Source of the DNA: an uncultured Bacteroidales bacterium
GTDB lineage: Bacteria; Bacteroidota; Bacteroidia; Bacteroidales; P3
Length of the DNA stretch: 37,543 nucleotides
NCBI GenBank assembly: GCA_947165345.1
Contig: CAMVAA010000005.1
Location: 1-37,543 of the forward strand
Direction of reading: 5' to 3'
Position numbers and translations under genes: made by a program. A model generated the notes under the pieces. The model had not been told where the DNA came from, searched no databases, and worked only from the letters and a program-made list of their open reading frames with translations. Of this stretch, positions 19,707-23,676 are shown piece by piece; the first letter of the stretch is position 1; every line of letters starts with the position of its first letter.

Positions 19707-19742
19707 CCGTTTCCCGGGCCGTGTCAGCGGCTCAGGAAACGG
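19707..19742. terminator. Stem-loop between convergent genes, possible bidirectional terminator
   Basis: CCGTTTCC (19707-19714) pairs perfectly with GGAAACGG (19735-19742), with a smaller GCCG/CGGC stem inside the loop. It covers the 3' junction of the repeat-protein gene and the MauE/Trx gene and includes that gene's stop. No T-run follows on either strand, so termination here is only a suggestion. Confidence 0.35.
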
Positions 19743-20584
19743 CTTATCTGCCGCTCGTTGATGTTGCGGTAGTGGTAGGTTGTTTGCGGCTTGCCGTCGT
19801 CGACGAGCAGGACCAGGGGGCGCTGGCCGAAGGTCACGCCGATGAAACGTTCCATTCCGATATCAGACGGTTCGAGGTAGACGATGTCCGCGGTGTCGAG
19901 CCCTTTGCGCTGCGCCATGGAGGCCAGTTTGCTGCGCGTCATGCGGCAGTAGGGGCAGCCGGGTGTGACGAAGGCCACCAGCTTGTGGCCCCGGTCGAGA
20001 CCTTGTTCGTGGAGGGTCTGCTGAAGGAGGTCGGCGTCGTAGCGCTGCTGAGCGTCGCCGAACATCCAGCTGTCAGGGACGGACACGACGAAGGGGACGA
20101 CCATGGCGGCCGCCAACACCAGAGGACGTGCAATCTTCAGGAAGAGGCCGCGGCCGAGGGCGCGTGGCACAGGGTCGAGGCGGTAGTAGAGCAGGGTGAG
20201 CACGATGAAGACGGCGTTTTTCAGCAGTGACACCGCGGGCGGCATGTCGACCATGCGTCCGAAGCACTGGCAGCTTTCCTGGCGCCCGATGAGAGCGGCG
20301 TAGCAGAGGAAGAGGGAGAAGAAGAGCAGCATGCCCAGAGTCAGCAGCTTGGTGAAGCGCGGCCACCAGCCCGCCGCGATCAGTGCCGCGGTGGCCAGCT
20401 CGACGCCGATGCAGAGGCGGGTGGCCACGAAGACCACGTCGAGAGGCAGGAAGCCATAGGAATAGACATAGAGCTCGAAGTCGTCGATGGCCATCAGCTT
20501 GGTCACGGCCGACAGGACGAACACGCACGCCAGCACGACGCGCAGGGCTACCGCTGCGGTGCGCCGCCAGAGCTCACTTGCCAT
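19724..20584 (-). CDS. MauE/DoxX-type membrane protein fused to a thioredoxin-like domain
   Basis: The 286-residue protein has four to five membrane spans in residues 10-135 with the MauE/DoxX pattern. A Cys-x-Cys pair sits in SCQCFGR (Cys105, Cys107), just before a further span. After a last hydrophobic segment (~153-168) there is a soluble thioredoxin-like domain with active-site CPYC (Cys210-Cys213). MauE-type proteins help form or shuttle disulfides in the periplasm, and a C-terminal Trx domain would be the partner. The start overlaps the end of the upstream lipoprotein gene by 11 bases. Both neighbouring lipoproteins are rich in conserved cysteines, so they are likely substrates or partners (inference). 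Bacteroides BT_3928-family proteins may be relatives. Confidence 0.82.
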   Translation of the reverse strand: MASELWRRTAAVALRVVLACVFVLSAVTKLMAIDDFELYVYSYGFLPLDVVFVATRLCIGVELATAALIAAGWWPRFTKLLTLGMLLFFSLFLCYAALIGRQESCQCFGRMVDMPPAVSLLKNAVFIVLTLLYYRLDPVPRALGRGLFLKIARPLVLAAAMVVPFVVSVPDSWMFGDAQQRYDADLLQQTLHEQGLDRGHKLVAFVTPGCPYCRMTRSKLASMAQRKGLDTADIVYLEPSDIGMERFIGVTFGQRPLVLLVDDGKPQTTYHYRNINERQISRFLSR

Positions 20585-20834
20585 AGTCGATGCACTTCAC
20601 GCTGTGGACCTCCTCGCGACGGAGCGACTGCACGTTGGAGGCGGTGTCCACGTATTTCACCTCGAAGCCCATCTGGGAGATGGCGTCGCAGCTGAGGCTG
20701 CCGTCGACGGTCATGATTTTCAGGAGCCCGTCGTCGGTGATGTCCGTCGTCTCGCATTTGCACTGGTGGTCTTTGGCGCAAGAGGCCGCGAACAGAGCCA
20801 GCACGGCCAAGGCCGGGAAAAGTATCTTTTTCAT
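20574..20834 (-). CDS. Cysteine-rich mini-lipoprotein B
   Basis: The 86-residue precursor has a lipobox LFAASC (lipidated Cys19). The mature part has four more cysteines: Cys25-x-Cys27, Cys49, and Cys81 in a C-terminal CIDYG motif. The paralogue next to it (20843-21091) has the same order: CxC six residues after the lipid Cys, then a V-D/D-K turn, a Cys, and a terminal Cys-x-Asp-Tyr. I recognise no family. It overlaps the downstream MauE-Trx start by 11 bases, which suggests coupled translation. Four non-lipid cysteines could form two disulfides or bind metal. Confidence 0.75.
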   Translation of the reverse strand: MKKILFPALAVLALFAASCAKDHQCKCETTDITDDGLLKIMTVDGSLSCDAISQMGFEVKYVDTASNVQSLRREEVHSVKCIDYGK

Positions 20835-20842
20835 AGTCTTGC

Positions 20843-21091
20843 TTAATCTTTATAGACAGAATCTATCATAAACTCGTAGTCCATGCAGTAGAGCGTGTCG
20901 GTCACGTTGGCCTCGGTGGGCGTGTGGTAGTCGTAGACCAGGAGCTGAGTGCATTCGCCCTTGTCGATGGTTACGACGCGGACGATGGGCTTGCCCGGGA
21001 TGGCACAGCGGCATGTTTTCTGCTTGCTGCATCCGGTTGCCAAGGCCGCAACGGTCAGGGCGCAGGCTATCGCAATGATACATCTTTTCAT
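20843..21091 (-). CDS. Cysteine-rich mini-lipoprotein A
   Basis: The 82-residue precursor has a lipobox ALATGC (lipidated Cys21), then Cys27-x-Cys29, Cys47 and Cys69 in CMDYEF. The CxC pair is six residues after the lipidated Cys, exactly as in the neighbouring lipoprotein B. A shared VVTIDKGEC/IMTVDGSLSC segment confirms that the two arose by tandem duplication. It begins only 2 bases after the ftsK stop and ends 8 bases before lipoprotein B, so it is part of the ftsK transcript. Function unknown; an envelope redox or metal role is inferred from the cysteines and the downstream MauE-Trx protein. Confidence 0.75.
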   Translation of the reverse strand: MKRCIIAIACALTVAALATGCSKQKTCRCAIPGKPIVRVVTIDKGECTQLLVYDYHTPTEANVTDTLYCMDYEFMIDSVYKD

Positions 21092-21093
21092 AT

Positions 21094-23676
21094 TTACAGG
21101 GATTTAAGTAATTCTTCCAAAGACACCTCGTCGTGGATGAGCACGTCGCGAGGTTTGCTGCCGTTGCTTGGGCCGACGATGCCGGCGGCCTCGAGCTGGT
21201 CGATGATGCGTCCGGCGCGGTTGTAGCCGAGCTGGAGTTTGCGCTGGAGGAGGGAGGTGCTGCCGAACTGGGCGCTCACGACGAGGCGAGCGGCGTCGTT
21301 GAAGAACTCGTCCTTGTTCTTGGCGTCGAATTCTTTGTTGGGCTCCTCGTTCTCGTCGAGGTATTCAGGCAGTTCGAATCCGTCGGGGTAGCCGCGCTGG
21401 TCGCCGATAAACTTCACGAGGCGTTCGATTTCGGGTGTGTCGATGAGCGCGCACTGTAGACGGATCATGTCTTTGCCAGCCAGCAGGATGAGCATGTCGC
21501 CGCGTCCGATGAGCTGCTGAGCGCCGCCGGTGTCGAGGATGGTCTTGCTGTCGATGCCGCTGGTGACGCGGAAGGCGACGCGGGCGGGGAAGTTGGCTTT
21601 GATGGTGCCGGTGATGATGTTGGTGGTGGGGCGCTGAGTGGCGATGATGAGGTGGATGCCGACGGCGCGGGCCAGCTGAGCGAGACGTGCGATGGGCAGT
21701 TCGACTTCCTTGCCGGCGGTCATGATGAGGTCGCCGAACTCGTCGATGACGACCACGATGTAGGGCAGGTAGCGGTGTCCATGCTCGGGGTTGAGCATGC
21801 GCTTGCAGAACTTGTCGTTGTATTCGGTTATCTTGCGCACCTTGGCCTGTTTCAGGAGGTCGTAGCGGGTGTCCATCTCGATGCAGAGGCTGTTGAGAGT
21901 GCGGACCACCTTCTTGACGTCGGTGATGACGGCGTCCTCTTCGTCGGGCATCTTGGCGAGGTAGTGACGTTCGAGTGCGGAGTAGAGGCTGAATTCCACC
22001 TTCTTGGGGTCGACGAGGACGAGTTTGAGCTCGCTGGGGTGCTTGGTGTAGAGGAGGCTGGCGAGGACGGCGTTGAGGCCGACGGACTTACCGGTGCCGG
22101 TGGCGCCGGCCATGAGGAGGTGAGGCATCTTGGCGAGGTCGGTGACGAAGCACTCGTTGGAGATGGTCTTGCCGAAGGCGATGGGGAGTTCCATTTTGGC
22201 CTTGGCTGCCTGGAAGGCGTCGCTGTCGAGCATGGTCTTCATGGCCACAATCTGGGGCTTGGCGTTGGGCACTTCGATGCCCACGTTGCTCTCGCCGGGA
22301 ATGGGAGCTATGATGCGGATGCCGAGAGCGGCGAGAGAGAGTGCGATGTCGTTCTCGAGGCTCTTGATTTTGCTAATGCGCACGCCTGGCGCGGGCTTTA
22401 TCTTGTAGAGTGTCACCGTTGGGCCGGGCTGTGCCGAGATGTCGGTGATTTCGATGCCGTAGTCGCGCAGGGTCTGTACGATGCGGTCTTTGTTGGCGAT
22501 GAGTTCTTCTTTGGTGACGCGGACGTTGGCGGCCTCCCAGTCTTCGAGCAGCGAGGTGTCGGGCATGATGTAGTCGCTGAGGTCGAGGTGAGGGTCGTAG
22601 GGGTCGTCGAGGCCGTAGTGGCGTCGGTAGTCGTCGTCGAGTTCGTCGAGAGAGGGGTCGTCGGCCTCGGCGGGTTCTGCGGGTTCGGGTAGGGGCGAGA
22701 CGGCGGGGACGGGGTCGTCGTCGGTCTCGCCTTCGATGGTGAAGTTGATGTCGTCGGTGGCCGCGGACGGCTGGTCGCCGGCGGTAGCTTTCGCCATGAC
22801 ACGTGCGAACTCGTCGTCGATGCTGAAGGCGGGCTCGTTGTCGACGGGCATGTCAGCTTCGGGCGCTGGGGAGTGGAAGAGTTTCATGGCCTCGTCGTCG
22901 AAGTCGGCGCCGGGGTCAGGGTCGTTGTCGTTGTTGTTGCCGGAGGCTTCGGGCGCCATGCCTGGCGAGAGGCCGAGGCTTGCGTCGTCGACGTCGGTCG
23001 GTTTGTCGTCGGGCTTGGGGGAGTCGTGGTGGTCGGTGGCAACGGCCTCGATGCCTTTCTCGATGCCGAGGGCCACGCGTTTCATGTCGACGTTGGGCAT
23101 GTGAATCTCAGGCAGTTCCATCTTGTGGACGAGCACAAGGAAGAGGACGGCGACGAAGACCAGGAGGACGAGTGTCCACCAGCGGATGAGGTGGTGGAGC
23201 GGTGCGGCGAGCCGGAGGCCGATGCCGGCGTAGGGTTCGAAGGCTGCGTCGCGCACCCATGCGCCGCCGATGTAACCGAGTGTGAGCGAGAGCCATAGCA
23301 TCCAGAAGAGGGTGCTTCCGAAGGTTTTCCACCAGGGCAGGACGGAGACGTTCCAGAGTCGCATGCCGTAGACGAAGAGGAGCAGTGCGACGCCGAAGGA
23401 GCCGATGCCGAAGAGGTTGACAGCCAGCAGTTCGGCCATCCAGTGTCCGAGGCTGCCCAGCCAGTTGCCGCCGGCGCCGCAGCCGGTGGCGAAGTAGCTC
23501 ACCAGGGCGAGGGTGGCGAAGAGGGCCAAGAGAACATAGAAGGCGCCGCGGATGTGAGCGAAGCGGCTGCTTTTGAGGAATGCGACAAAGCCGCCCGACG
23601 GTTTTGAACCCTTCGCGGCAGCCTTGCCTTTTCCCTTGCCCTTGGCGGGTGTTTTTTTCTTTCTTGAATCAGCCAC
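21094..23676 (-). CDS. ftsK: DNA translocase FtsK
   Basis: The 860-residue protein has the full FtsK/SpoIIIE plan. A Lys/Ala/Gly-rich N-terminus is followed by four membrane spans (~44-185) and an acidic, low-complexity linker (~215-375, many Asp/Glu/Pro). The α/β motor has Walker A GATGTGKS (524-531) and Walker B VVVIDEFGD (Asp645-Glu646). A winged-helix γ domain occupies the last ~70 residues and reads KOPS sequences. It pumps chromosomal DNA at the division septum so that dimers and termini are segregated before closure. It is preceded by a DUF4412-like gene (43-base gap) and followed almost without gaps by two Cys-rich lipoproteins and a MauE-Trx gene. Confidence 0.97.
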   Translation of the reverse strand: MADSRKKKTPAKGKGKGKAAAKGSKPSGGFVAFLKSSRFAHIRGAFYVLLALFATLALVSYFATGCGAGGNWLGSLGHWMAELLAVNLFGIGSFGVALLLFVYGMRLWNVSVLPWWKTFGSTLFWMLWLSLTLGYIGGAWVRDAAFEPYAGIGLRLAAPLHHLIRWWTLVLLVFVAVLFLVLVHKMELPEIHMPNVDMKRVALGIEKGIEAVATDHHDSPKPDDKPTDVDDASLGLSPGMAPEASGNNNDNDPDPGADFDDEAMKLFHSPAPEADMPVDNEPAFSIDDEFARVMAKATAGDQPSAATDDINFTIEGETDDDPVPAVSPLPEPAEPAEADDPSLDELDDDYRRHYGLDDPYDPHLDLSDYIMPDTSLLEDWEAANVRVTKEELIANKDRIVQTLRDYGIEITDISAQPGPTVTLYKIKPAPGVRISKIKSLENDIALSLAALGIRIIAPIPGESNVGIEVPNAKPQIVAMKTMLDSDAFQAAKAKMELPIAFGKTISNECFVTDLAKMPHLLMAGATGTGKSVGLNAVLASLLYTKHPSELKLVLVDPKKVEFSLYSALERHYLAKMPDEEDAVITDVKKVVRTLNSLCIEMDTRYDLLKQAKVRKITEYNDKFCKRMLNPEHGHRYLPYIVVVIDEFGDLIMTAGKEVELPIARLAQLARAVGIHLIIATQRPTTNIITGTIKANFPARVAFRVTSGIDSKTILDTGGAQQLIGRGDMLILLAGKDMIRLQCALIDTPEIERLVKFIGDQRGYPDGFELPEYLDENEEPNKEFDAKNKDEFFNDAARLVVSAQFGSTSLLQRKLQLGYNRAGRIIDQLEAAGIVGPSNGSKPRDVLIHDEVSLEELLKSL

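Follow-up and report, generated by a model that had tools for sequence, protein, structure and literature searches.

Gene arrangement

The window, i.e. the whole stretch of 37,543 nucleotides of an uncultured Bacteroidales bacterium that was analyzed here, belongs to a genome (G000) of 1.75 Mb that is 74% complete. On its minus strand, ftsK (positions 21,094–23,676) is followed by two ORFs for mini-lipoproteins of 82 and 86 amino acids, referred to here as Lp1 (20,843–21,091) and Lp2 (20,574–20,834), and by a gene for a fusion protein of 286 amino acids (19,724–20,584), MauE-Trx, in which a Pfam MauE domain with five predicted transmembrane helices precedes a thioredoxin (Trx)-like domain. According to the ORF calls, lp1 starts 2 bases past the ftsK stop codon, 8 bases separate lp1 from lp2, and the reading frames of lp2 and mauE-trx overlap by 11 bases. 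The arrangement of two small, cysteine-rich lipoprotein genes and mauE-trx behind ftsK described in an earlier note on this DNA is thus borne out, including gaps and overlap. The predicted lipid-bearing cysteine of Lp1 is C21, followed by C27-x-C29, C47 and C69, and the corresponding residues of Lp2 are C19, C25-x-C27, C49 and C81. The shared pattern of a lipid cysteine, a CxC motif, a middle cysteine and a Cys-x-Asp-Tyr motif that had been proposed for the two proteins is present in both. Its strictly terminal position has to be corrected for Lp1, in which ten residues follow C69-M-D-Y; Lp2 ends with C81-I-D-Y-G-K.

Conservation among close relatives

At an E-value of 1e-8, MauE-Trx was detected in 62 of 99 relatives, i.e. 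in 56 of 59 genomes of the same genus, among them that of the window, and in six of 40 from other families. The three genomes of the genus without a match are 68–79% complete. The relatives found are uncultured Bacteroidales, many of them from rumen or hindgut as judged by record title, and include Candidatus Colimorpha species. Synteny was assessed for the best 80 of 258 matched mauE-trx loci. Two lipoprotein genes reside directly upstream of mauE-trx at 79 of these 80 loci, the sole departure being L239 with a single one. A third lipoprotein with the same cysteine pattern, Lp3, is encoded not more than 2.5 kb downstream of mauE-trx at 30 of the best 80 of 258 loci. It is of the CNKRCRC...C...CEW type, occurs in 30 of the loci L219–L257 and was not seen at the window locus. 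Note that the first lipoprotein pattern missed genes and that later scans used looser rules. In one further genome of the genus (G031, locus L041), mauE-trx lies in another setting and no lipoprotein was seen in the fetched stretch. The same genome is the only one of 61 in which VKOR exceeded the cut-off; the matches are two ORFs of 518 and 547 amino acids on contig C125.

Among the best 80 of 258 relatives, ftsK lies directly upstream in 51, further off in 16, and was not found or lies on the other strand in 13. The lipoprotein-MauE-Trx module persists in all relatives without adjacent ftsK, and ftsK was found beside mauE-trx at none of the 63 loci from outside the genus, many of which are covered by stretches reaching 1.5 kb. 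The gene was therefore left outside the module. The activity at the septum that the earlier note had derived from the ftsK linkage lacks support because this linkage is local, and a septal role of the module was rejected.

The mini-lipoprotein family

Lp1 and Lp2 of the window share 19% identity, and their paralogy was confirmed by comparing the profiles of their mature parts with hhalign (97.4%, E 1e-11). In alignments of the best 80 of 258 relatives, the five cysteine columns are kept in 79–80 of 80 rows for Lp1 (window included) and in 80 of 80 rows for Lp2; those of Lp3 are kept in 30 of 30 rows. Mean pairwise identities in the same alignments amount to 0.46, 0.33 and 0.40 for Lp1, Lp2 and Lp3, respectively. 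The cysteine columns are thus essentially invariant, a point on which the earlier note had made its proposal depend. While the lipoprotein scan itself required cysteines, such selection hardly explains the conservation in Lp1 and Lp2 because both genes were found at 79 of 80 loci. The CxC motif is present in every Lp1 and Lp2 row of the alignments for the best 80 of 258 relatives; the automatic flag reported it for both upstream genes at 75 of 80 loci, the script having sometimes taken the wrong cysteine as the lipid-bearing one. An alignment that combined the window pair with nine lipoproteins of other origin has as invariant columns M1, the lipid cysteine, a lysine two positions after it and four further cysteines. 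A lipid cysteine plus exactly four others in the mature part was counted in 72 of 79 Lp1, 73 of 79 Lp2, 22 of 30 Lp3 and 26 of 27 other sequences.

In profile comparisons of mature parts, Lp2 matched the set from outside the genus with 95.6%, compared with at most 0.8% for 20 column-shuffled decoys. The mature part of Lp3 reached 64.5% against Lp1, 47% against Lp2 and 5% against the outside set. Its kinship is suggested by cysteine pattern and gene position, its mature part being weakly related to the others. No Pfam or NCBIfam model exceeded its cut-off in a scan of ten members of the lipoprotein family. The PG1828 family (NF050142) likewise consists of short lipoproteins and matches weakly in the N-terminal part. 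However, the best score among the ten members was 21 bits compared with a cut-off of 50. Lp2 itself scored 16.8 bits and no match was listed for Lp1, such that membership in this family was rejected. A search for related solved structures found none (best E-value 0.46). The AF2 model of Lp2 (pLDDT 86.8) consists mostly of beta strands after the signal peptide and does not follow a Trx-like order.

Surface export signals have been described as C-x-K-(D/E)2, C-Q-A-(D/E)2 or C-S-(D/E)2 following the lipid cysteine (PMC5080379). None of these signals, as given in the part of that source drawn upon here, occurs in the 79 Lp1, 79 Lp2, 30 Lp3 or 27 other sequences. As C-x-K is followed by one acidic residue in 47 of 79 Lp1, 47 of 79 Lp2, none of 30 Lp3 and 16 of 27 others, a weak export signal is conceivable. 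A surface export signal of the published kind is absent, and for this reason we consider it likely, judging from the sequences, that the lipoproteins reside in the outer membrane and face the periplasm.

The MauE-Trx protein

MauE-Trx matches the Pfam family PF07291 over residues 9–133 with 77.2 bits (cut-off 27, E 1.9e-21). Matches to the Pfam thioredoxin and glutaredoxin models are weak and all below cut-off, and among solved structures weak matches were obtained for the Trx half (best E-value 0.001). The AF2 model (pLDDT 94.9) shows long helices at residues 2–31, 48–71, 75–98, 116–136 and 147–167. From about residue 184 onwards, strands and helices follow a Trx-like order, as read from the model itself. 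Two cysteine pairs stand out. The codons for C105-Q-C107 (20,264–20,272, minus strand) specify a part of the loop that connects the third and fourth transmembrane helices in the AF2 model and is predicted to be periplasmic; both cysteines are invariant in alignments of 20 and 52 rows. The second pair, C210-P-Y-C213 (19,946–19,957, minus strand), forms the predicted active site of the Trx domain and is invariant in the 20-row alignment together with P256, the expected cis-proline. According to the model, C105/C107 and the Trx-like domain are on the same side of the membrane whatever the orientation. Both pairs are probably periplasmic, because the first loop is acidic and the N terminus positive, a charge bias that is modest.

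CPYC is the motif of glutaredoxins, while CPHC, which occurs in some of the MauE-Trx relatives, is the motif of E. coli DsbA. As it is of the glutaredoxin type, the CPYC motif in the window protein says little about the direction of electron flow. Membership in the BT_3928 family (NF045576) was rejected. This family has a MauE-type N-terminal half and a weak match is present at residues 13–135, but MauE-Trx scored 33.4 bits in its N-terminal half compared with a cut-off of 250. Moreover, 20 control loci with MauE alone, presumed to be of this kind, have neither a C-terminal CxxC nor a nearby CxC lipoprotein.

Adjacency beyond the genus

From a sample of 393 Bacteroidales genomes, 63 mauE-trx loci outside the genus were considered, originating from 60 genomes. 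A CxC lipoprotein is encoded next to 29 of them, 25 times on the same and four times on the other strand. These cases are spread over 18 of 28 family groups outside the genus, when the remaining genus of the family to which the window belongs is treated as a group of its own. L127 was dropped from the counts, which would otherwise be 30 and 19, because the ORF in question is antisense and lies inside the mauE reading frame. Beside genes for MauE proteins without a Trx CxxC, no CxC lipoprotein was detected (0 of 20 control loci), and the same rule produced a single call in 283 kb at distances of more than 1.6 kb from mauE. Together with its recurrence in 79 of 80 relatives, this argues that the layout is not due to chance. 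A broader rule accepting any small, exported, cysteine-rich ORF was positive for 38 of 63 loci compared with one of 20 controls; it includes false calls, e.g., at L140 and L158, and the conclusions do not draw on it.

In the five f136 genomes and in five of six f2 genomes, the lipoprotein genes reside at a distance from mauE-trx next to unrelated genes, with tandem arrays of up to four. At the f136 loci L290, L291, L292 and L293, two to four tandem mini-lipoprotein genes reside next to a gene for an exported protein of about 700 amino acids, flanked by uvrB-like and aminotransferase-like genes (named by eye). The window genome itself contains further mini-lipoproteins matching the profile from outside the genus at a distance from mauE-trx (L303:282–509 on G000:C78 and L304:4448–4660 on G000:C81).

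In a second sample comprising 392 genomes of the phylum, lipoproteins were detected at an E-value of 1e-5 in three genomes, i.e. the window genome, G143 and G115, and the same three, and no others, have MauE-Trx at 1e-60 or better. G143 had served as a profile source. G115 contributed no query, belongs to another family of the class and encodes its lipoproteins in trans, none of them being adjacent. At 25 other full-length mauE-trx loci of this sample (E 1e-54 or weaker), no CxC lipoprotein was found within approximately 1.5 kb. The proteins from these loci, along with two from the order, form a single clade of 27 rows with a support of 100/100 that stems mostly from other classes.

On the MauE-Trx tree, the label for an adjacent CxC lipoprotein changes at least ten times. 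A separate clade of 17 rows contains seven members (L064, L143, L145, L146, L147, L151 and L154) with a small downstream protein that has many more cysteines. These partners are small lipoproteins or secreted proteins, and in six cases (L143, L145, L146, L147, L151 and L154) their genes start 5–26 bases downstream. In the same clade, a CxC lipoprotein accompanies L148, L150, L159 and L063, and six rows have neither kind of partner. MauE-Trx may thus be associated more generally with small, cysteine-rich exported proteins.

Genome-wide co-occurrence

A reverse search was performed with a profile (A3) of 27 lipoproteins from outside the genus against the same 393 Bacteroidales genomes. Genomes counted as lipoprotein-positive when the E-value was 1e-6 or better and the best match reached position 61 of the 75 profile positions, and as MauE-Trx-positive when a match extended into the Trx half or was confirmed at the locus. 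The 63 genomes with MauE-Trx in this sample are the 60 from outside the genus plus G000, G754 and G810, and are not to be confused with the 63 loci outside the genus. Among the matches listed, a strong lipoprotein match was obtained for 40 of the 63 genomes that have MauE-Trx and for one of the 330 that do not (Fisher 4e-37). Without the 23 genomes from which the query was built, the proportions are 17 of 40 and one of 330, again among the matches listed (Fisher 2e-17). In both statistics the related genomes are not independent of each other. Of the 23 MauE-Trx genomes without a strong match among those listed, at least four (G810, G526, G693 and G830) nevertheless encode adjacent lipoproteins, whose scores were too low; others may have none.

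The single genome on the other side is G571 (90% complete), which encodes a true CxC...C...C lipoprotein of 112 amino acids (L332, G571:C66:36800–37400) and in which MauE-Trx was not found even at an E-value of 0.01. The same genome encodes a CxxC protein (L309). For weaker matches, 20 stretches from 15 genomes without MauE-Trx were fetched, which represent a part of the near-threshold set among the matches listed. Eleven of these 20 stretches, from eight genomes without MauE-Trx among the matches listed, encode mini-lipoproteins in which CxxC replaces CxC; for most of the remaining near-threshold stretches, the match extends little beyond the signal peptide. Including G571, CxxC look-alikes are present in at least nine genomes without MauE-Trx (L325–L329, L331, L333, L334, L336, L341, L342 and L309). 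They resemble the CxC proteins with regard to size, lipid cysteine, four or more further cysteines and a weak profile match, but differ from them in the CxxC motif and in hosts that do without MauE-Trx. Small four-cysteine lipoproteins in general therefore do not need MauE-Trx, while the CxC kind tracks it closely. The co-occurrence asked for in the earlier note was found at the level of genomes, since 40 of 41 genomes of the order sample with CxC lipoproteins by strong match, among the matches listed, have MauE-Trx. As regards the neighborhood, homologs indeed reside mainly in MauE-Trx genomes, but in several of these they lie elsewhere, and in G571 the enzyme was not found.

Co-occurrence of this kind might simply reflect shared ancestry or a common niche, with other enzymes serving the lipoproteins and no direct biochemical link. 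The relatedness of the sampled genomes would fit, as would G571 and the CxxC look-alikes. This explanation appears very improbable to us in the face of an adjacency that recurs in 18 of 28 family groups with at least ten label changes on the tree, of G115, which has both partners in another family without having provided a query, and of MauE-only controls that are free of CxC lipoproteins (0 of 20).

Proposed function and direction of electron flow

Searches for the established envelope systems were conducted in 61 genomes, 37 of which belong to the genus; each of the Dsb and VKOR searches was positive in three to ten of 14 control genomes. DsbA was detected in two of the 61 genomes (one of 37 in the genus), DsbB in none, and VKOR exceeded the cut-off in one (one of 37). 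The DsbD membrane domain is present in 58 (36 of 37). In the window genome, with its completeness of 74%, the VKOR and DsbB profiles had no match. Oxidation is favored over reduction because DsbA, DsbB and VKOR are nearly missing, while the reductive DsbD domain is widespread. The CPHC motif of some MauE-Trx relatives points in the same direction.

From the gene and protein sequences we consider it reasonably probable that MauE-Trx is an inner-membrane thiol-disulfide oxidoreductase that makes disulfides in a dedicated manner for the family of small lipoproteins and passes electrons out to menaquinone. We infer both the direction of electron flow and the function of the lipoproteins themselves. 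The CxxC site of the Trx domain would take electrons from the four lipoprotein thiols and thereby introduce two disulfides. The CxC of the MauE domain would then re-oxidize the Trx site and the electrons would leave to menaquinone; MauE-Trx is probably quinone-linked. In this respect, the protein would correspond to DsbA and DsbB combined, or to VKOR fused with Trx, although its membrane part is unrelated to theirs. Afterwards, the lipoproteins would be passed on to the outer membrane, where they probably face the periplasm. Findings that weigh against this reading are the CxC lipoprotein of G571, the CxxC look-alikes, the MauE-Trx genomes without a strong lipoprotein match and the clade of 27 rows that lacks a nearby CxC lipoprotein.

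Alternatively, MauE-Trx could work as a reductase that either maintains the four lipoprotein cysteines as thiols, e.g., to form a zinc, copper or iron site, or resolves wrong disulfides. A metal site would be compatible with four cysteines that include an invariant CxC, the rumen or hindgut origin of many relatives by record title presumably means anoxic conditions, and the CPYC motif of the window protein resembles that of glutaredoxins. On the other hand, DoxX relatives have been linked to quinones. In addition, a DsbD-type reductive domain already exists in 58 of the 61 genomes whereas oxidases are nearly missing, and MauE has been connected with a disulfide-rich protein, as far as the relevant part of the source goes (PMC7794033). 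We therefore regard a reducing enzyme as unlikely.

In the earlier note, the lipoproteins had been proposed as substrates or electron relays of MauE-Trx. A thiol-disulfide partnership is in agreement with co-occurrence and conserved cysteines; of the two roles, that of a substrate is favored because the lipoproteins form a multi-copy, diverse family that often has unrelated neighbors. As relays, they would be redox partners that connect MauE-Trx with outer-membrane or periplasmic targets and not end products. In favor of relays, a CxC pair is capable of redox chemistry, electrons could travel outwards by way of a lipid anchor, and the two upstream copies are retained in 79 of the best 80 of 258 relatives. 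However, sequence and copy number differ widely, and several genomes have copies next to unrelated genes (uvrB-like and aminotransferase-like by eye), which is more client-like, and beta strands without a Trx-like order, as in the Lp2 model, do not speak for a relay either. This possibility appears quite improbable.

Taking the disulfide-forming reading further, MauE-Trx may constitute a third, unrelated quinone-linked generator in Bacteroidales devoid of DsbA, DsbB and VKOR. It would not be a general one but private for an expanding family of CxC mini-lipoproteins, with a separate clade serving a many-cysteine client encoded 5–26 bases downstream. We offer this extension tentatively and consider it rather doubtful.

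Relation to known systems and implications

VKOR-Trx fusions and DsbA-DsbB couple a membrane helix bundle with a cysteine pair to a CxxC domain of the Trx fold. MauE-Trx resembles them in this combination of a membrane cysteine pair and Trx-like CxxC, but MauE represents a different membrane family, and no match to the VKOR or DsbB profile was obtained in G000. For the methylamine utilization cluster, it has been speculated that MauE acts in the formation of disulfides in the beta subunit of methylamine dehydrogenase (PMC7794033, citing van der Palen 1997). Similarities to MauE and MauD of that cluster, as portrayed in the relevant part of the source, comprise the MauE membrane domain (PF07291) and one small disulfide client. 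In contrast, a single fused polypeptide is present here and the putative clients are lipoproteins. Genes for methylamine dehydrogenase were not recognized by eye among the ORFs of the window. Candidate RiPP clusters found with decRiPPter in Streptomyces combine a mauE homolog with a small predicted precursor containing at least eight cysteines (PMC7794033). As in the cases described here, a mauE homolog is located beside a small, cysteine-rich product. These clusters belong to another phylum, however, and the section of the report concerned mentions no lipoproteins, whereas here MauE is fused with Trx and co-occurrence supports the pairing.

Among the titles listed, nothing relevant was found in the open-licence literature on a pairing of MauE-Trx with lipoproteins or on the combination of DoxX, thioredoxin and cysteine-rich lipoproteins. 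The proximity of MauE to cysteine-rich products was already known or suspected, as indicated by the part of the literature cited (PMC7794033). New, as far as open-licence literature shows, are the fused enzyme with its putative lipoprotein clients, the lipoprotein family and the evidence for co-occurrence.

Since hardly any of the 61 genomes encode DsbA, DsbB or VKOR, these proteins do not explain how, or indeed whether, envelope disulfides arise in anaerobic gut Bacteroidales. MauE-Trx would offer one enzyme with a defined client family, and leads to the prediction that lipoproteins carry free thiols upon loss of MauE-Trx. At the same time, it hints at a function for lipoproteins that no Pfam or NCBIfam model covers, and it yields a candidate rule, according to which mauE-trx genes may point to small, cysteine-rich exported partners.
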